Assembly (NCBI GenBank): GCA_947649125.1 | Contig: CANSQL010000021.1 | Location: 1 to 42,368, forward strand | DNA length: 42,368 bases | Origin: an uncultured Erysipelotrichaceae bacterium | GTDB lineage: Bacteria > Bacillota_I > Bacilli_A > Erysipelotrichales > Erysipelotrichaceae | Direction of reading: 5' to 3' | Shown: piece after piece, positions 1-30,304 of the stretch | Position numbering within the stretch: the first letter of the stretch is position 1 | How the letters are laid out: every line of letters begins with the position of its first letter | Notes under the pieces: generated by a model | What the model was told of the DNA's origin: nothing | Database searches by the model: none | What the model saw: the letters and a program-made list of their open reading frames with translations, nothing else | Translations under genes and position numbers: made by a program

Positions 1-2754
1 CAAGGAAGCATTTAATATCGTTACTAATCCACTCGCATCTACCGATATCACATCGCTAGGACTGCCTGCCTTTAGCTGATACGTTACTGTGGAACCGTTT
101 GGATTTCCTGCCGTATAAAGCTGAAAGGTTTTATTTGGTGCATATACTTCGCTGTATGCCTTATAACTGCTTCCATCTTTTGGTAGCTCATTTCCTGCAT
201 CATCTGTATAGATGAAGTTTTGTGTTCCCGCTGTGACTGTAAAGGTAAGCTCCGCTACCGCCTTTGCCTGTCCGACTCCGCCTTCCTTTTCCGCTACGAT
301 CGTTATCGTTCCGACACCGTTGATTGTCACTACTCCGCTGTTTGGATTGATCGTGATGATATTTGTGGAACCGTCCTTGATTCTATAGGTCACAGGATTA
401 TTATTGGTGCTTCCTTTGACTGTCGCATAGACACTCACATTCGTATCTGTTACCTTCACACTTTTTTGACTTATCATATTAACGGCAGCGCTTGTTTCAT
501 AAAATCTTAAATCCTCTGCACTCGCTACTCCGACATTAATTGTCACCGGGATTTGTTTGGTGCTCCATTTATCAGATACTGTTACCGTGATATGATAGCT
601 TTGTACTCCTAGATTTCCTGTTGTCTTAATGACTCCTGTATTGGGATCAACAGTGAATAAGCTCGAATCTCCGCCTGTTTCTATTCCGTATTTATAAGTA
701 ATCGTTGACGAACCACCGATATTATCTGGTGTTCCTGTCGTACCTTGAATAGTTCCGATAATTCCGTTTGTCTTTACATTGGTATCTGTTGCGGTAAAGG
801 TAGGTATGATACTATCAGATGAATTCGCATGCGGTGTTACACTTCCGTCTACTTGTTTATAAATGATAATTTCCTTTTCTGTGAAAGCTGAATTATAATT
901 ATCATCTCCACTGTTAGGATCATCATCTGCGGTTGCCTTTATCTTAACTTTACCAAATGCTCCGTTACCCTTATAAGTAATCGCTCCTGTATCAGAATCA
1001 ATATCAATCAAGTAGGTATCACCGCCGCTCACACTATAGGTTACTTTAGTTCCTGTATTAGGGTTCGCTGTCGCTGTTTCATTCCAAGCTGTTGCGGCAT
1101 CCGCTACTGATTTCTTTGTTTGATTCGGATCATCAAAAACTACCGTTAAGCTTGTCTTTTCTACTGTGAATGAGGTACATACCTTTTGTGTCGGATTTCC
1201 ATTCGTATCCACAGGATCACCATTCACATCCACTGCAGTAATGCAGAATTTATAACTTCCTGCTTTTAATCCCCCGTTCATTAAATCAGGCGCATTACTT
1301 TTAATCTTTACATTTAATGAGGTACTGCTTGAAGCTCCGCCGCTTAAACCATCGACTTCGAAGTTTTGATAAGTATCATCACCGTTTGCTTCTACCGTAT
1401 ATGTAAGCGGCATAACTCCTTGCGGGTTTACTGTTATCTTACCTACTGTTTGTCCTGCATTTACATTCTTACTGAACTCATAATCCTTGCCTGCACTTGC
1501 CCCGCTTTGCGGTTGTTTCGTATAAGTAAGTCTATGTGGCTCTACGATTTCAAGCGGCAACAGCTCGGAAATCGGAGAACTTTCTACCGATAACTGTGAT
1601 GATGAAACATATTCCTCATTAATCACCGCAAGCTTATATTTACCCACCGGAATACCGCTTAAATCTATTGAATAATCATGTGTGCCGCTTTTCGTAGCGT
1701 TTCCCAACTTGTAATATTGAATCTGAGTTCCTGCATCATTATATAAAATTGTTGAAATCCTTGTATTGACTCCTGTGTTCGCACTTACTGTTACGTCTAC
1801 ACTGCCATCTTTAACAACCTTGCTTGTGCTACGATTGTTTCTTTTAATATCCTGTAAATTAACTGTTAAAGATGATTGGATTCTTAATTTATTAGGATTC
1901 AATTCATTGTTTGCATTTAAATTGCTTGTATCTATTGTATAGCTATGCCATTTACCATCTGTATAAGAGGTATTTGCGGCAAACATAATTTCAGCAGGGC
2001 TTATAATCGCAAAAGGTCGTAAAGAATGGTCAATACCCGCACTGCCGGAGGTATTACTTGAAAAACCTATTGCGATTCTTTCGATTGGCTGAATCTTTAC
2101 AGATGGTGTATCAACATCATTCGTAGGATGTGCAAACAGTGCACGAGCCAGGTCAACTTGAAACGCATTTAAGTGTAATCCTCGATATCCGCCGTTTATC
2201 GAATCATAGGAAGATAAATAGCCGTCCAACCAATATACGACATCATTTTTAAAAGCTCGATCGTTCACCCCAAGTCCGAGCGTACCTCCATTTTTGATAT
2301 CATTGAAATGCGGTAAGAACGGCTCTTTAACCATCAAACCATTTTCCGTATTGTTCAACGAAATTCGGTTTATTTCATTTTTCAAACTGGTGGTCGGACA
2401 AAATATTGAAGCGATACCATCATTCGTTTGCATGTTCAAACAATAATTATCTCTTTCTTCCAACGGAATCGGAGTAGCCAATTTAGATGGTATACTGGGA
2501 TCGTAATTACTGATTTCCTTAATTGACATACTGCTCATCAACACATAATTTCCGTTATTATTGTTATTACCGATATCCCATACAACTTCTTTATTGTTAT
2601 ACTTTCCTAAAACAATCTTTGAACCTTTTGGCAATTGAAAGACAGGAGCAGATTGTGCATTTAAAGTAGTCAGCATATTACTGTTTGTATAAATATAAGC
2701 TACAGCAAATACAACCAATGTCGCCGTTAGTGCTGTAATCATTTTCCTAAACAT
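1..2754 (-). CDS. Large exported cadherin-like repeat surface protein, 3' end outside window
   Basis: An open frame of 918 codons runs from an ATG at 2754 off the left edge without a stop. The start has a good ribosome binding site (AGGAAAGG, spacing about 9). Residues 1-25 form a signal peptide or membrane anchor (MFRKMITALTATLVVFAVAY). Residues about 30-270 are a globular N-terminal domain I do not recognise. From about residue 430 the protein is built of Ig/cadherin-like beta units; four contain the same edge motif, (I/V)(D/N)xx(T/S)G(V/A)(I/V), near residues 583, 705, 803 and 905, roughly 100-120 residues apart. Such proteins are typically cell-wall adhesins; the C-terminal anchor would lie outside the window. 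The sigma factor gene just upstream, same strand, is a plausible regulator (inference). Surface location is likely, the ligand unknown. Confidence 0.85.
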   Translation of the reverse strand, partial: MFRKMITALTATLVVFAVAYIYTNSNMLTTLNAQSAPVFQLPKGSKIVLGKYNNKEVVWDIGNNNNNGNYVLMSSMSIKEISNYDPSIPSKLATPIPLEERDNYCLNMQTNDGIASIFCPTTSLKNEINRISLNNTENGLMVKEPFLPHFNDIKNGGTLGLGVNDRAFKNDVVYWLDGYLSSYDSINGGYRGLHLNAFQVDLARALFAHPTNDVDTPSVKIQPIERIAIGFSSNTSGSAGIDHSLRPFAIISPAEIMFAANTSYTDGKWHSYTIDTSNLNANNELNPNKLRIQSSLTVNLQDIKRNNRSTSKVVKDGSVDVTVSANTGVNTRISTILYNDAGTQIQYYKLGNATKSGTHDYSIDLSGIPVGKYKLAVINEEYVSSSQLSVESSPISELLPLEIVEPHRLTYTKQPQSGASAGKDYEFSKNVNAGQTVGKITVNPQGVMPLTYTVEANGDDTYQNFEVDGLSGGASSSTSLNVKIKSNAPDLMNGGLKAGSYKFCITAVDVNGDPVDTNGNPTQKVCTSFTVEKTSLTVVFDDPNQTKKSVADAATAWNETATANPNTGTKVTYSVSGGDTYLIDIDSDTGAITYKGNGAFGKVKIKATADDDPNSGDDNYNSAFTEKEIIIYKQVDGSVTPHANSSDSIIPTFTATDTNVKTNGIIGTIQGTTGTPDNIGGSSTITYKYGIETGGDSSLFTVDPNTGVIKTTGNLGVQSYHITVTVSDKWSTKQIPVTINVGVASAEDLRFYETSAAVNMISQKSVKVTDTNVSVYATVKGSTNNNPVTYRIKDGSTNIITINPNSGVVTINGVGTITIVAEKEGGVGQAKAVAELTFTVTAGTQNFIYTDDAGNELPKDGSSYKAYSEVYAPNKTFQLYTAGNPNGSTVTYQLKAGSPSDVISVDASGLVTILNASL

Positions 2755-2991
2755 ACGAATCTTTCCTTTCCTTCGATAAATCAAAATTACGTATTTTAAT
2801 ACACCGATGATATTAAAAGCCTACTTCATAAGCATAAAACAGAAATAAACTTTTAATAGAACGATTTTGATTCATTCAATCAAATAAACAAAAGCATACT
2901 ACAAAAAAGTGCTTTAAATACACTTGCCCCATTGTATATTCACTGTAAGACACATAAAAATCATATTGCGTTCACTTAAAATCAAAAAAAA

Positions 2992-4032
2992 TTAAAAATT
3001 TTTTAAACGCTGTTCATAGCTGTCTGTCCAACCGCTTGTTTTCAGCACATGATAAAAACTTCCGTCACACTCTTTTAACGCTTCATATAACGGCTTCATC
3101 TCTATAATCAAGCGATCGCTGATCACCTGTAAAGCTTTATCATCATACGCATAATTTCTAAGTAAATAATACGCATCCTGTTCATTATTGATTGCATAAG
3201 TATCGATCAAAACAGTAGGAAAAGCTGTTTGTTTTGCATTATTCGGCTTTTGATATTCATGATAGATCCCTAATGCACTGAGGGTAACAACACAGCTGCA
3301 TGCCCCGATTGCATAATTCATTGTCGTTTTGCTCATAAGGTTACCGAGCTTATCCGATAAAGAAGGCTGAATCAATACAAGCCCCTTTGTCCAAGCTGCC
3401 TGTTCCTTTAAAAAATACATTGTAAAAAGCATCGGTAAGCTTGAAAAGTAAAAATTCAGCTTTACCTGTTCCCGCTGTTCATATTCCTCAATTTTTAAAC
3501 GCAATGCCTTTCTTGCGGCAAAGGCACGGCTTTTTACCGTACCGATCGGAATATTCAATAGGTCGGCTGTCTCCTCCTGCGAGCATTCCTGATAATACAA
3601 ATACTTGATGATATCCTGATGCTCCTTGCTTAAGGATTGTATTAACTCCGTTAAAACCGCTTGATCGCTGTTAAAGCGTGCATTGGCTTCACTGAGATAT
3701 TCTCGTCTGTTTTCGGTAACCGAATTAAAATACTTCACGTATTCATCGTCATATAAATCACTCTTATTATCACGAAACAGATTTTTACATTTATTCACAC
3801 AAATACGATTGATCCATAACGGAAAATAATGCGGCTTTTCCAAATGATGAATCGATTTGCGTACTTGAAGAAAGGTAAGCTGGGCAATGTCCTGTGCATC
3901 TGCATCATTACGACAAAGCTTCATCGCAGCCTTATAAACGCTCGGATAGTATTCCTTAAACAATTCCTCAAAGGCTTCCTCATCATGTGCTATCGTTTGT
4001 TTCACTAAATAGGTTAAGCGATCATTGTCCAT
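2992..4032 (-). CDS. ECF-type RNA polymerase sigma factor with C-terminal membrane segment
   Basis: The protein has 346 residues from the ATG at 4032, chosen because AAAGGGG lies 7 nt upstream; a longer frame starting at a TTG at 4056 has no binding site. Region 2 covers about residues 15-90 (motif DAQDIAQLTFLQVRKS at 45-60). Region 4 covers about 130-180, with a helix-turn-helix at 151-177 (SQEETADLLNIPIGTVKSRA). Typical ECF sigma factors end near residue 180. Here about 165 residues follow, including a hydrophobic stretch at about 239-256 that should cross the membrane, and an approximately 90-residue tail that would then be extracytoplasmic. No separate anti-sigma gene is adjacent. The giant surface protein gene lies 237 bp downstream on the same strand and is a candidate target. 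The sigma fold is certain; tethering or self-inhibition is inferred. Confidence 0.88.
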   Translation of the reverse strand: MDNDRLTYLVKQTIAHDEEAFEELFKEYYPSVYKAAMKLCRNDADAQDIAQLTFLQVRKSIHHLEKPHYFPLWINRICVNKCKNLFRDNKSDLYDDEYVKYFNSVTENRREYLSEANARFNSDQAVLTELIQSLSKEHQDIIKYLYYQECSQEETADLLNIPIGTVKSRAFAARKALRLKIEEYEQREQVKLNFYFSSLPMLFTMYFLKEQAAWTKGLVLIQPSLSDKLGNLMSKTTMNYAIGACSCVVTLSALGIYHEYQKPNNAKQTAFPTVLIDTYAINNEQDAYYLLRNYAYDDKALQVISDRLIIEMKPLYEALKECDGSFYHVLKTSGWTDSYEQRLKNF

Positions 4033-4156
4033 AATCATGCCCCTTTCTTTATTCAATCATATGTGACATCAGCAGAAAAGTCAATATATAAATTATGTAA
4101 AAATACAATTATATTACAAAATTCAGTCTTTGGTAGTGCAAACAGAGTAAAAACGT

Positions 4157-6435: not shown

Positions 6436-7752
6436 CTAGCCATGCTTCTTTTTCCACGCATCGATCTGCTTCATACGCTCCTTTACCCTTGCCTCACTGC
6501 CCATATCGGTAGGCTGATAATATACTCTGCCCTGCATGGATTTTGGCAGGCATACCATCGTTGTAAGCTTATCCTCGCTTTCATGTGCATACTCATAGCC
6601 CTTCCCGTAATCAAGCTGCTTCATTAAACCGGTAACGGCATTGCGAAGCTGTAACGGAACCGGCTCTGCTATTTCACTTAACGCATCCTGCTTGGCCTTT
6701 TCATAAGCCAAATAAAGGGCATTGGACTTCGGTGCCAAAGACAAATACGTAACCGCATGCGTCAGATGGACACTGCACTCCGGCATTCCGATATCATGAC
6801 ATGCATCAAATACAGCCGTTGTGATTTCAACAGCACGAGAATCCGCCATACCGATATCCTCAGAGGCGAAGCGAATCAAGCGCCTTGCGACATACAACGG
6901 GTCCTCTCCCGCCTCTAACATGCGGGCAAGCCAATAAATTGCCGCCTGTACATCACTGTTGCGCATTGATTTATGCAGCGCACTGATTAAATTATAATGC
7001 TCCTCTCCCTTTTTATCATACAAAAGGGATTTTTTTGAGATGCACTGTTCAATGATTTCCTTATTAACTATAATACTTCCGTCCTGAATCGCACCGTTTA
7101 AAATCACCATTTCCAGCGTATTCAAGGCCGTTCTTGCATCACCGTTCGCAAAGCCGGCAATCATATGAAGCGCTTCCTCATCGATCGTTATATCGACATT
7201 GGCAAACCCTTGCGGAGCATTCAGCGCATGCTTCAGCAAATCAGCGACTTCTGCTTCACTGAGCGCATGTAACACAAATACCTTGCATCTTGACAACAAC
7301 GCACTGTTGATTTCAAACGAGGGATTTTCCGTTGTAGCACCGATCAGCACAATGCTTCCCTTTTCCACATACGGCAAAAAAGCATCCTGCTGCGCCTTGT
7401 TGAAGCGATGAATCTCATCGACGAATAAAATTGTTCGCTCCCCCATTCGCCGCGCACTCTCCGCTTGATTCATCACCGCTCTGATTTCCTTGATTCCGCT
7501 TGTTACGGCACTGAAATCGATAAAATTTGCCTGACTGTGCTTTGCGATGATCCGAGCGAGCGTTGTTTTTCCGACTCCCGGCGGTCCCCAAAATATCATC
7601 GAGGGCAAATGATCACTCTCAATCAGCCGTTTTAAAACCTTATCCTCACCGAGAATATGCTTTTGTCCGATATAATCCTTCAATGTATTCGGCCGCAAAC
7701 GATTTGCCAAAGGCTCATTCATTAATTCATCATCAAATAGACTTGTCTGCAT
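6436..7752 (-). CDS. rarA: Replication-associated recombination protein A (RarA/MgsA)
   Basis: The protein has 438 residues, the usual length for this clamp-loader-like AAA+ ATPase acting at stalled replication forks. The N-terminus (LANRLRPNTLKDYIGQKHIL) is the family signature. Walker A is GPPGVGKT at 56-63, Walker B lies in FVDEIHRFNK at about 109-118, and sensor 1 in GATTENPSFEIN. The C-terminal half (LARMLEAGEDPLYVARRLIR and on) is the tetramerisation domain. GAGGG lies about 7 nt before the start at 7752. The gene is divergent from the TIM-barrel gene, with about 95 bp between starts. Confidence 0.96.
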   Translation of the reverse strand: MQTSLFDDELMNEPLANRLRPNTLKDYIGQKHILGEDKVLKRLIESDHLPSMIFWGPPGVGKTTLARIIAKHSQANFIDFSAVTSGIKEIRAVMNQAESARRMGERTILFVDEIHRFNKAQQDAFLPYVEKGSIVLIGATTENPSFEINSALLSRCKVFVLHALSEAEVADLLKHALNAPQGFANVDITIDEEALHMIAGFANGDARTALNTLEMVILNGAIQDGSIIVNKEIIEQCISKKSLLYDKKGEEHYNLISALHKSMRNSDVQAAIYWLARMLEAGEDPLYVARRLIRFASEDIGMADSRAVEITTAVFDACHDIGMPECSVHLTHAVTYLSLAPKSNALYLAYEKAKQDALSEIAEPVPLQLRNAVTGLMKQLDYGKGYEYAHESEDKLTTMVCLPKSMQGRVYYQPTDMGSEARVKERMKQIDAWKKKHG

Positions 7753-14349: not shown

Positions 14350-14985
14350 ATGAGAAAAACGTATGGTTATGTTCGTGTATCCTCAAAGGATCAAAATGAA
14401 GCAAGGCAATATTTGGATTTGATTGAATTCGGAATCGATGAAAAAAATATCTATATGGATAAGCTCAGCGGTAAGGATTTCAATCGTCCCTCTTATCATC
14501 GGCTAGTCTATAAGAAGCTGAAATCAGGCGATCTGTTGGTAATCAAAAGCATCGATCGTCTGGGCAGGAATTATAATGAGATTCTGCAGGAATGGAAGTA
14601 TATCACAAAGGAAAAAAATGTCGATATCAAAATACTGGATATGCCGTTATTGGATACGGACCAAAATAAGGATTTGATCGGTACGCTGATCGGTGATATC
14701 GTATTACAGCTGTTGTCTTTCGTGGCTGAAAACGAACGTGTCAATATTCATCAGCGACAGGCGGAAGGAATCAGAGCGGCAAAGCTGAGAGGAGTTCGCT
14801 TCGGACGTCCGGAAATTGAGCTGCCGGATGATTTTGAGGATATCTTGGATACATGGCAAGGCGGAGGTTTGGCTTCTAAGGATGCAATTGCGATATCCGG
14901 TTTAAAGTACAGCACCTTTTATAAGAAAGCGAAAATCGTTCGTGAGCGAAAAGAAAAAGAAATCGAAATACCTACACAAGGGTAA
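14350..14985 (+). CDS. Serine recombinase of the resolvase/invertase family
   Basis: The protein has 211 residues, a typical small serine recombinase. The N-terminal catalytic domain begins YGYVRVSSKDQNEARQ (residues 5-20), with the nucleophilic serine in the VSS motif and the conserved DRLGRN arginine region near residues 75-80. The long E helix covers about 115-150 (IVLQLLSFVAENERVNIHQR). A C-terminal helix-turn-helix is seen near 170-195 (GLASKDAIAISGLKYSTFYKKAK). AGAGGTG precedes the start by about 4-5 nt. No inverted repeats of a transposon and no transposase are nearby, so its substrate, whether inversion, resolution or a lost mobile element, is unclear. Confidence 0.93.
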   Translation: MRKTYGYVRVSSKDQNEARQYLDLIEFGIDEKNIYMDKLSGKDFNRPSYHRLVYKKLKSGDLLVIKSIDRLGRNYNEILQEWKYITKEKNVDIKILDMPLLDTDQNKDLIGTLIGDIVLQLLSFVAENERVNIHQRQAEGIRAAKLRGVRFGRPEIELPDDFEDILDTWQGGGLASKDAIAISGLKYSTFYKKAKIVRERKEKEIEIPTQG

Positions 14986-29530: not shown

Positions 29531-30304
29531 CTAAAGCATTATTTGAAGTCGATTTGCTTTCGGTGTTTCATGAAAAACCGTTTTCAGCCATTCATCTTCT
29601 AAAATCCAGCCGTTTTTCGTTTCTATCACATTCGTATAGGCACGAAACAGATCGTTTTTACGATTCATACGTAAAAAGCCCTTGGCAGGATGAAGCATAC
29701 GATAATGATAAAAGGCCATGCGCTCATAAGCAAGCTGCTTCCAGCACATTAAAATCTGAAGCAGTAAAAAGCTCATGACAAGATAAGCACTCGCTGTTTG
29801 AATAATGCGATAATGCCATAATAAAAACAGATTGATGATTCCCGTCAGATAGGTAAGTATTTGTGCACTCGTATAACGAAACACAAGATGAAACAACGAT
29901 TGTACGATACGTCCGCCGTCAAGGGGAAAGATCGGCAACAGATTAAACACAAGAATCGATGTATTCAGCTGACATAAGTAATTCATATACGGCTGTGATA
30001 TAAGATTTGCCGCTGCCATAAATGAAAATACATACGGAAATAAGACATGCGTTGCAGGTCCGGCAATAATGATCAAAAGCTCTTTCCAAATGCTGCCCAT
30101 TCCGATACAGTGCATTTGGGCGCTTAAGCCGAACGGATAAAGAATCACCTTATCGATCGGATAATGAAAGCAATGCGCGACAAGCATATGTGCTCCCTCA
30201 TGAATCGTCAGCATAAAAAACAAAATCAACAGTGTTTTTCTCATATGAGATGCCAGTAACAGCGGAAGAAACGCAAGCCACAGCCACGATATTTTCAGTT
30301 TCAT
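29531..30304 (-). CDS. spoIVFB: Site-2 intramembrane metalloprotease, SpoIVFB-like (M50)
   Basis: The protein has 257 residues with about six hydrophobic segments. The zinc-binding motif is HEGAH at 35-39, and the third ligand lies in NLLPIFPLDGGR at 121-132 (D129). In Bacillus this protease cuts pro-sigma-K in the mother cell during sporulation. The start overlaps the upstream gene by 4 nt (ATGA), and that gene is SpoIVFA-like, so the gene pair is conserved. The wider mreCD-minCD neighbourhood is also as in Bacillus. Whether this organism sporulates cannot be judged from the window. Confidence 0.85.
   Translation of the reverse strand: MKLKISWLWLAFLPLLLASHMRKTLLILFFMLTIHEGAHMLVAHCFHYPIDKVILYPFGLSAQMHCIGMGSIWKELLIIIAGPATHVLFPYVFSFMAAANLISQPYMNYLCQLNTSILVFNLLPIFPLDGGRIVQSLFHLVFRYTSAQILTYLTGIINLFLLWHYRIIQTASAYLVMSFLLLQILMCWKQLAYERMAFYHYRMLHPAKGFLRMNRKNDLFRAYTNVIETKNGWILEDEWLKTVFHETPKANRLQIML

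Follow-up and report, generated by a model that had tools for sequence, protein, structure and literature searches.

Parallel sigma systems that are wired to adjacent surface functions are known from SigI/RsgI and from the trans-envelope ECF systems of gut Bacteroides, and in both cases the anti-sigma protein is separate from the sigma factor. Single chains that hold both activities have also been described. In Pseudomonas putida, IutY (ECF243) is a sigma and an anti-sigma factor in one polypeptide, released by Prc and RseP; it serves iron cell-surface signalling, and its C-terminus is the anti-sigma part (PMC8999054). The actinobacterial groups ECF48, ECF52, and ECF53 (e.g., SCO4117) have a C-terminal membrane helix with an outside extension, proteolytic release being expected, together with a zinc-finger anti-sigma domain and other extensions (PMC8999054). 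Among switches that govern surface proteins, CwpV of Clostridioides difficile relies on one switch for one gene: the segment of 195 bp lies between 21-bp repeats and can invert, and its OFF orientation is proposed to set an intrinsic terminator before the large surface-protein gene (PMC2784873).

Here, we analyzed a stretch of 42,368 nucleotides from an uncultured Erysipelotrichaceae bacterium (contig CANSQL010000021.1 of assembly GCA_947649125.1; hereafter, the window), in which an ECF-type sigma factor gene lies beside a giant surface-protein gene (Table 1). We consider it probable that this protein unites an ECF sigma factor and its membrane tether in one chain and serves the adjoining surface-protein gene alone, through a private promoter. 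Like IutY, it joins an N-terminal ECF sigma factor and a C-terminal membrane segment in one chain without a separate anti-sigma factor, and like ECF48, ECF52, and ECF53, it carries a C-terminal membrane helix followed by an extension that is predicted to lie outside. Because IutY is known and the three actinobacterial groups have been proposed (PMC8999054), the layout is already known in kind, and the protein is a variation on known single-chain tethered ECF factors. It departs from them in other ways. Unlike the anti-sigma C-terminus of IutY, its tail matches no known domain, and it has none of the zinc-finger or other extensions of the actinobacterial groups; each genome has about 25 copies, and the genetic partner and apparent output is a giant surface protein. 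An array of about 25 sigma-promoter pairs, with a residue-84 series and exchangeable, apparently invertible surface loci, is not described among the literature matches listed (titles and abstract starts), which covered tethered sigma factors, erysipelotrich ECF factors, invertible terminators, sigma factor recognition and rewiring, and antigenic variation involving ECF factors.

Table 1. Features of the window that bear on the tethered sigma factor and its surface-protein partner
Feature	Position	Strand	Basis
Giant surface-protein gene, cut off by the contig end (first 928 codons present)	1..2784	-	Signal-type N-terminus, cadherin-like repeat
Intergenic private promoter of ECF type, ahead of the surface gene: -35 GTGAACGC, -10 GTGTCTTACAGTGAA	2939..2975	-	Kept in all 5 orthologues identified
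Gene of the ECF-type sigma factor, predicted to be membrane-tethered	2992..4032	-	Translation (ATG 4032 to stop 2992, 346 aa; alternative upstream ATG possible at 4038), Pfam/NCBIfam
Tail domain, residues 281-346, predicted outside, conserved	2995..3192	-	Orthologue identity 61%; all-helical in a low-confidence model
Membrane segment, residues about 239-257	3262..3318	-	Hydropathy and flanking charge across 145 homologues
Sigma region 4, residues 127-178	3499..3654	-	PF08281, E 5.2e-11, above gathering score
Sigma region 2, residues 24-90	3763..3963	-	PF04542, E 1.3e-11, above gathering score
Asn84 codon, region 2.4 helix; residue predicting two private -10 bases	3781..3783	-	AMI 0.85; SigH N92 equivalent
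Housekeeping-type sigma-gene promoter: TTGACT (4079-4084), 17 bp, TATGAT (4056-4061)	4056..4084	-	Family-wide scoring
Serine recombinase, candidate inverting enzyme	14350..14985	+	PF00239
M50 site-2-type protease, one of several possible releasers of the tethered sigma factor	29531..30304	-	PF02163

Layout of the sigma factor and of its family

The window protein matches the NCBIfam model for the sigma70-ECF superfamily (TIGR02937) at 86.3 bits, against a cut-off of 42.9. The original prediction had the sigma regions ending near residue 180, in agreement with the Pfam boundaries of regions 2 and 4, and it had the chain continuing to residue 346 through a membrane segment and a tail of some 90 residues, as translation and hydropathy confirmed. 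It had also found no anti-sigma gene beside the sigma gene, and there is none among its neighbours, which are the large surface-protein gene downstream and a divergent 81-aa ORF upstream. As to the wider claim of a sigma factor with its control on board, the part that stood is the tethered single-chain layout with a predicted outside tail and no separate anti-sigma factor, which is common to all 145 homologues examined (none of them has a soluble extension instead). The other part, that the tail may keep the sigma factor inactive until it senses a signal or is cleaved, stays a proposal. Past region 4, the window protein has no Pfam domain above cut-off, zinc fingers included; we take the anti-sigma C-terminus of IutY to be FecR-like, and no such match follows region 4 either. 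A single-sequence AF2 model of the tail is all-helical, with a pLDDT of 68, which is low confidence (43.6 for the full-length protein), and a fold search of the PDB with this low-confidence tail model gave no matching solved structure (22 matches, best E 3.0). Neither Pfam nor this fold search thus revealed a recognizable anti-sigma or sensor domain in the window protein's tail.

The membrane segment and its topology are predicted from hydropathy and charge only. The window protein has a single 19-residue peak of at least 1.1, starting near residue 238, and its value (1.55) is among the lower ones of the family. Across the 145 members, the best 19-mer before the tail never fell below 1.32 (mean, 1.92) and was at least 1.6 in 135, compared with a mean best of 0.87, and a maximum of 1.71 in one protein, inside residues 1 to 185. 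The idea that the segment is a chance feature was ruled out, since every one of the 145 family members has one. Within the family, the N-terminal flank of the segment carries on average more lysine and arginine than the C-terminal flank (2.79 versus 1.17) and less aspartate and glutamate (0.41 versus 3.15), and net charge is greater on the N-terminal side in 139 of 145 members. In the window protein, the flanking charges are equal, with 2 K/R and 1 D/E on each side. Given this distribution of positive charge on the N-terminal side and negative charge on the C-terminal side, we predict for the family an N-in/C-out topology, with the sigma regions inside and the tail outside.

The tail is well kept. 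Between orthologues, identity is 76% in region 2, 74% in region 4, and 61% in the tail domain, but 45% in the juxtamembrane linker, 40% in the membrane segment, and 36% in the stretch just after it. When the tail alone was searched against 118 genomes of the order, 6 genomes matched; 5 belong to the same genus, and the sixth match, outside the genus, was weak and frame-broken (E 7.8e-4).

The window sigma factor is one of many, a wider picture that the original prediction had not drawn. Its own genome (2.41 Mb, 98.7% complete) gave 27 family matches, of which 25, including the window sigma factor, are full length; six sister species gave 16 to 32 matches each, and the same search gave 0 to 15 weaker ones in each of 34 further genomes from the family and order. 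The 145 members analyzed come from seven genomes (25 from G000, 12 from G001, 26 from G002, 16 from G003, 22 from G004, 25 from G005, and 19 from G006) and fall into 34 reciprocal-best-hit groups, 27 of which are present in at least three genomes. Paralogues within one genome are distant (median identity, 32%; maximum, 47%), whereas orthogroup means between species run from 49 to 86%, and, judged by these identities, the repertoire is therefore old and stable.

A scan of other genome contigs listed 80 loci, all of them ECF relatives at 22 to 34% identity; none is evidently a member of the genus, though the scan may omit near records. Two further loci were noted. One (L032, 7184-8971) encodes a divergent 595-aa relative that consists of a sigma factor, a membrane segment, and a weak Ig-like match; its C-terminal stretch resembles an NlpC/P60 peptidase by eye (Pfam made no call), and it sits upstream of ribosomal-looking genes. 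The other (L033, 7618-8851), in the same genome as the window, encodes an ordinary short ECF sigma factor of 160 aa followed by a separate RsgI-like anti-sigma factor (PF23750). This pair lies outside the tethered family and provides a contrast within the same genome.

Private promoters and residue 84

Just upstream of 117 of the 145 sigma genes lies a TTGACA-17-TATAAT-like promoter that scores at least 10 of 12, a score reached by 8.6% of mononucleotide shuffles. Autoregulation through the private promoter was considered as a general rule and ruled out by these mostly TTGACA/TATAAT-type upstream promoters. Separately, in orthogroup 22 (L027), an unusual promoter, GCGCACGTTTT ... GTGTC, was seen by eye before both the sigma and the surface gene, which suggests autoregulation in this one group.

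Between the sigma gene and the surface gene, an ECF-type site was judged confident in 20 of the 27 orthogroups found in at least three genomes. The sequence pattern in these 20 is an AAC-containing -35 element and a short -10 element before the surface gene, and its recognition by the sigma factor is predicted. The private promoters share a common -35 and carry a cassette-specific -10, which is kept between orthologues and differs between paralogues. In 204 orthologous pairs from the 20 orthogroups (near-identical species pairs excluded), identity was 0.91 in the -35 (its AAC being fixed by the anchor), 0.57 in the spacer, 0.83 in the extended -10, and 0.48 downstream, while 799 pairs of paralogues from one genome gave 0.62 for the -35 and 0.35 for the -10. 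A C stands at position +23 in 18 of the 20 orthogroups, a position whose identity across groups was left unscored. Controls matter here, because the sites were anchored on AAC and chosen for conservation. Of 22 orthogroups, 15 reached a score of 20 in the promoter search; 2 of 22 did so when the reverse strand was searched and 4 of 22 when the anchor was TTG, and none did with CAA as the anchor (0 of 19) or with shuffled sequence (0 of 20).

The private promoter of the window cassette occurs exactly once in each of G000, G002, G003, G005, and G006 and not at all in G001 and G004; likewise, no orthologue of the window sigma factor was found among the sigma genes fetched from these two genomes (12 from G001, which is 66% complete, and 22 from G004). 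The orthogroup 3 pattern is found once in each of six genomes and is missing from G001, whose copy has a variant -10.

Within a genome, distances between paralogues in region 2.4 track the distances between their -10 elements, both in G002 (Mantel r, 0.39; P = 0.0002; n = 19) and in G000 (r, 0.37; P = 0.0018; n = 17). Region 4 showed no correlation with the -10 in these genomes (r, 0.00 and -0.03, respectively), and a link between the tail and the cassette's own -10 was ruled out (r, -0.18 and -0.27). With the 2.4 helix removed, the remainder of region 2 still follows the -10 to a lesser degree (r, 0.23 and 0.26; P about 0.015), and the linker and juxtamembrane segments in G000 reach P values of 0.04 to 0.05, so that shared descent evidently contributes to the correlation.

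One residue stands out. Among 344 residues compared across 22 orthogroups, residue 84 matched the bases at +20 and +21 with an adjusted mutual information (AMI) of 0.85, the next-best residue reaching 0.26; the permutation maximum over all residues was 0.56, and none of 300 permutations reached 0.85. Besides the 20 confident groups, the test set included groups 12 and 25, brought in once they had been seen to fit, and it left out five groups without a confident site (13, 19, 21, 22, and 24). AMI was used because an earlier maximum-statistic permutation on z-scores had been swamped by near-invariant columns (top residue, 21; 2/100).

Counted per sequence in the 20 confident groups (104 sequences), N84 goes with TG in 33 of 34 cases, R with GT in 18 of 18, D with CG in 13 of 17, M with CA in 8 of 8, and H with GC in 6 of 6; K is loose, going with GA in 11 of 21. 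Residue and dinucleotide also change together inside orthogroup 15, where four members have K84 with AT and the fifth has R84 with GT. Exceptions to the code are orthogroup 23 (D), which has mainly GG, and one member of orthogroup 26 (N), which has CA. Two groups lacking a confident site fit on reinspection, group 12 (R) in 4 of 5 sequences and group 25 in 3 of 3. Orthogroup 21 (R84) shows TA, against the code; orthogroup 13 (R) fits in 1 of 5 sequences and has no convincing common site; orthogroup 22 (N) fits in 1 of 4; and orthogroups 19 (T84) and 24 (K84) fall outside it. On a tree built without residues 74 to 92, residue 84 requires 14 parsimony steps and the dinucleotide 15, and their match is therefore more than one inherited event. 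When one site per sequence was chosen blindly and without regard to orthology, the rule held for 76 of the 97 sequences whose residue 84 is N, R, D, M, or H, versus 23.5 expected, although this test lacks independence, since the -35 weights and the rule derive from the same family.

Residue 84 lies 11 residues past the conserved Trp of region 2 (Trp+11), as does N92 of SigH. Read from the alignment, Bacillus subtilis SigW has D at this position, and its -10 element, which we take to be CGTA, fits the pairing of D with CG. Part of the residue-84 rule may be contained in the work of Todor et al. 2020 on ECF specificity. In the promoter-bound structure of Mycobacterium tuberculosis SigH, N92 touches the G:C pair at -11, two positions ahead of the -9 base, which is flipped out into the specificity loop (PMC6411747), and N84 of the present family pairs with G at the equivalent base, so that N goes with G in both. 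Unlike in SigH, position 84 varies across the paralogues, with N, R, D, K, M, and H as its six main residues, most of them with a dinucleotide of their own.

Partner surface-protein genes and the elements between them

The pairing of sigma and surface genes is close to universal in the family. A same-strand ORF of at least 150 aa follows the sigma gene in 137 of 139 testable cassettes, its median start lying 253 nt past the sigma stop; the contig ends at 799 and 939 nt in the two cassettes without one, and less than 700 nt from the sigma stop in the 6 of 145 that were untestable. Most complete partner ORFs (56/72) are 1,500 to 1,900 aa long, 24 of the 30 C-termini printed consist of GGAxTGD, a hydrophobic helix, and a basic tail, and MBG_2 scored above cut-off in 4 of the 5 complete surface proteins scanned. 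The surface gene of the window itself, which likely starts at an ATG at 2754, encodes a protein that matches PF00028 (cadherin) at 32.0 bits against a cut-off of 28.8; its complete orthologue in G002 is 1701 aa long and ends in GGAITGD, a hydrophobic helix, and a basic tail.

Twenty regions of G002 and G004, each up to 20 kb long, show arrays with one to three surface genes in tandem. An earlier reading, in which partial head cassettes lie silent behind the surface genes, was ruled out, since the tandem genes in these regions are complete. A repeated gene family containing the stretch NLEVADAIENNDLNKAYDEYCKKILSNKQ was also noticed near several surface-gene arrays (L010, 7794-8189; L015, 7281-8078; and, in oriented coordinates, L023, 9517-10536, and L251, 7647-8642); the two members scanned had no Pfam match at E 0.001.

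The N-terminal heads of the surface proteins are often exchanged while the sigma factors stay put. Between G000 and G002, sigma identity is 94 to 99% (22 of 23 pairs computed), yet the surface head (first 400 residues) is clearly better matched in another cassette in 12 of 23 pairs and has no orthologous match in 7. Between G005 and G006, where sigma identity is 90 to 99%, the corresponding counts are 8 and 6 of 18. The remaining pairs span 39% to 100%. Several of the better matches are weak (24 to 40% identity), and the donors of the heads are therefore often not traceable. We compared the DNA of 12 swapped and 2 unswapped pairs. In the 12 swapped pairs, the DNA is 92 to 98% identical from about 600 bp upstream through the sigma gene; in 10 of them, this upstream homology ends less than 200 nt from the start codon of the surface gene, and in 10 a long similar block (67 to 90%) returns about 1.2 to 2.0 kb further on, the other 2 having too little sequence or a short matching piece only. 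In L028/L140, L019/L127, and L017/L129, heads of about 1.2 to 2.0 kb are wholly different between sister species, with homologous sigma factor and stalk. The window's own cassette is unswapped relative to G002 (95% over 4.2 kb). The assemblies are drafts and the genes repetitive, yet the same pattern is seen in many cassettes and for both species pairs.

After and between the surface genes lie elements whose core measures 88 bp in 27 of 29 cases (87 bp in one and 89 bp in another), flanked by GTAGAC and GTCTAC sites, for example, at 7462-7599 and 12841-12985 of L243 and at 2855-2974 and 3609-3728 of L267. The window contains none, its contig ending inside the surface gene. The site pattern was matched in 6 of 7 genomes, and the reversed control gave no match. 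Of the 29 elements, 19 are in orientation A and 10 in orientation B. The predicted hairpin is -11.5 kcal/mol, followed by 6.5 T of 8, when read in orientation A, and -7.7 kcal/mol, followed by 3.1 T of 8, in orientation B (means of 29). On contig 45 of G004, two copies have exactly inverse cores (88/88); the left flank and site are identical at 216 of 216 positions, and the right flank is identical at 152 of 200. To us, the elements look like an invertible terminator switch. The likeness to CwpV lies in a segment between inverted repeats that occurs in both orientations, and the predicted hairpin and T-run of orientation A recall the intrinsic terminator proposed there before a large surface-protein gene (PMC2784873). 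Unlike the single CwpV switch, the 88-bp elements are repeated in many cassettes, where they separate surface genes in tandem and lie behind private sigma promoters.

The serine recombinase encoded in the window has orthologues at 92 to 100% identity in 6 of 7 genomes, all six of which have element matches, and its conservation within the genus exceeds that of most of the sigma factors. It was not found in G003 (86% complete), which is also the genome without element matches. The enzyme of a CwpV-type switch is presumably a RecV-type tyrosine recombinase, to which the serine recombinase would be an alternative, and tyrosine recombinases are also numerous here, with 3 to 14 matches per genome. 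As the enzyme that inverts the elements, the window serine recombinase is a candidate only.

How the cassettes may work

Each tethered sigma factor most likely drives its own surface gene, given the private promoters found in most orthogroups, the residue-84 correspondence, and the SigH contact at the equivalent base pair. The sigma gene would be expressed from its housekeeping-type promoter, and the protein would sit in the membrane with the sigma regions inside and the tail outside, from where it might be freed or made competent by tail-triggered proteolysis or by a conformational change. Region 4 would then read the -35 element common to the cassettes, and region 2.4, chiefly through residue 84, the private -10 element before its own surface gene; some 25 sigma-promoter pairs would thus be kept apart within one cell. 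The layout, the gene pairing, the private promoters of most orthogroups, and the residue-84 correspondence can be read directly from the sequences, and from these we infer the membrane location, the inactivity while tethered, a signal, the release, and the actual transcription. The housekeeping-type promoters before the sigma genes fit posttranslational control of the sigma factor. The M50 protease of the window is one of several possible releasers; M50 proteins occur in 7 of 7 genomes of the genus, but also in 14 of 14 control genomes. For the genus as a whole, a broader picture seems to us evenly poised between right and wrong: about 25 mutually insulated sigma-promoter channels, separated mainly by residue 84 and a two-base -10 code over a common -35, would drive fixed, tethered expression sites whose heads are exchanged and whose tandem genes are phase-switched by invertible terminators, yielding a combinatorial, separately addressable surface coat.

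Other readings have to be weighed against the dedicated, tether-controlled sigma factor. The sigma factors may be active while tethered, the tail serving only to position the protein or to sense the cell wall, in which case the cassettes would be constitutive and variation would come from head exchange and the invertible elements. The housekeeping-type promoters before 117 of the 145 sigma genes would suit such an arrangement, as would the separate, inversion-type control that seems to be present for the later genes of an array. So would the frequent exchange of heads behind sigma factors that are 90 to 99% identical, which also makes it unlikely that the tail senses the head of its own cargo. 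We nonetheless find constitutive activity rather unlikely. An outside domain of about 65 residues has been kept at 61% identity, against 36 to 45% for the linker, the membrane segment, and the stretch after it, which suggests a specific job outside; 25 always-active sigma factors would presumably leave 25 private specificities without a point; and IutY, a studied single-chain ECF factor with a membrane segment, is activated by proteolysis (PMC8999054). A reading that we rate as far less probable still is that the sigma factors are largely interchangeable, the conservation of the private -10 elements reflecting common descent of the intergenic regions. Orthologous intergenic regions are related in any case, the -35 is common to the cassettes, and parts of the sigma factor beyond the 2.4 helix correlate weakly with the -10. 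Against this, the spacer (0.57) and downstream sequence (0.48) have diverged around a -10 that stays at 0.83, and the parsimony counts are 14 steps for residue 84 and 15 for the dinucleotide, the two having changed together once within orthogroup 15.

A more serious contender, to which we give somewhat less than an even chance, views the sigma factor and its promoter as an unchanging expression site under selection for escape from immunity or phages, with a reservoir of variants behind it and sigma factors that switch stochastically rather than in response to specific signals. The head counts given above for both species pairs (12 of 23 and 8 of 18 better matched elsewhere; 7 and 6 without an orthologous match) speak for such a reservoir, as do the runs of up to three tandem surface genes behind elements in both orientations. 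Several of the better head matches are weak, however (24 to 40% identity), this analysis turned up no sequence sign of stochastic sigma switching, and 25 specificities exceed what a single-antigen switch would need. This explanation is compatible with, and not exclusive of, a tethered sigma factor dedicated to its neighbouring gene.

The natural series at residue 84, in which one sigma residue changes with two promoter bases, even within one orthogroup, makes the specificity rule directly testable, and insulated sigma-promoter pairs of this kind would be useful parts for synthetic gene control. If the dedicated, tether-controlled reading is true, the tail would represent a novel form of built-in sigma control, restricted to the genus in the sample searched (one weak hit aside). 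A single cell would then have about 25 dedicated sigma factors, each wired to one surface locus and together amounting to about 25 separate switches, and these bacteria would have solved the display and variation of surface antigens differently from a single switch or a global regulator.
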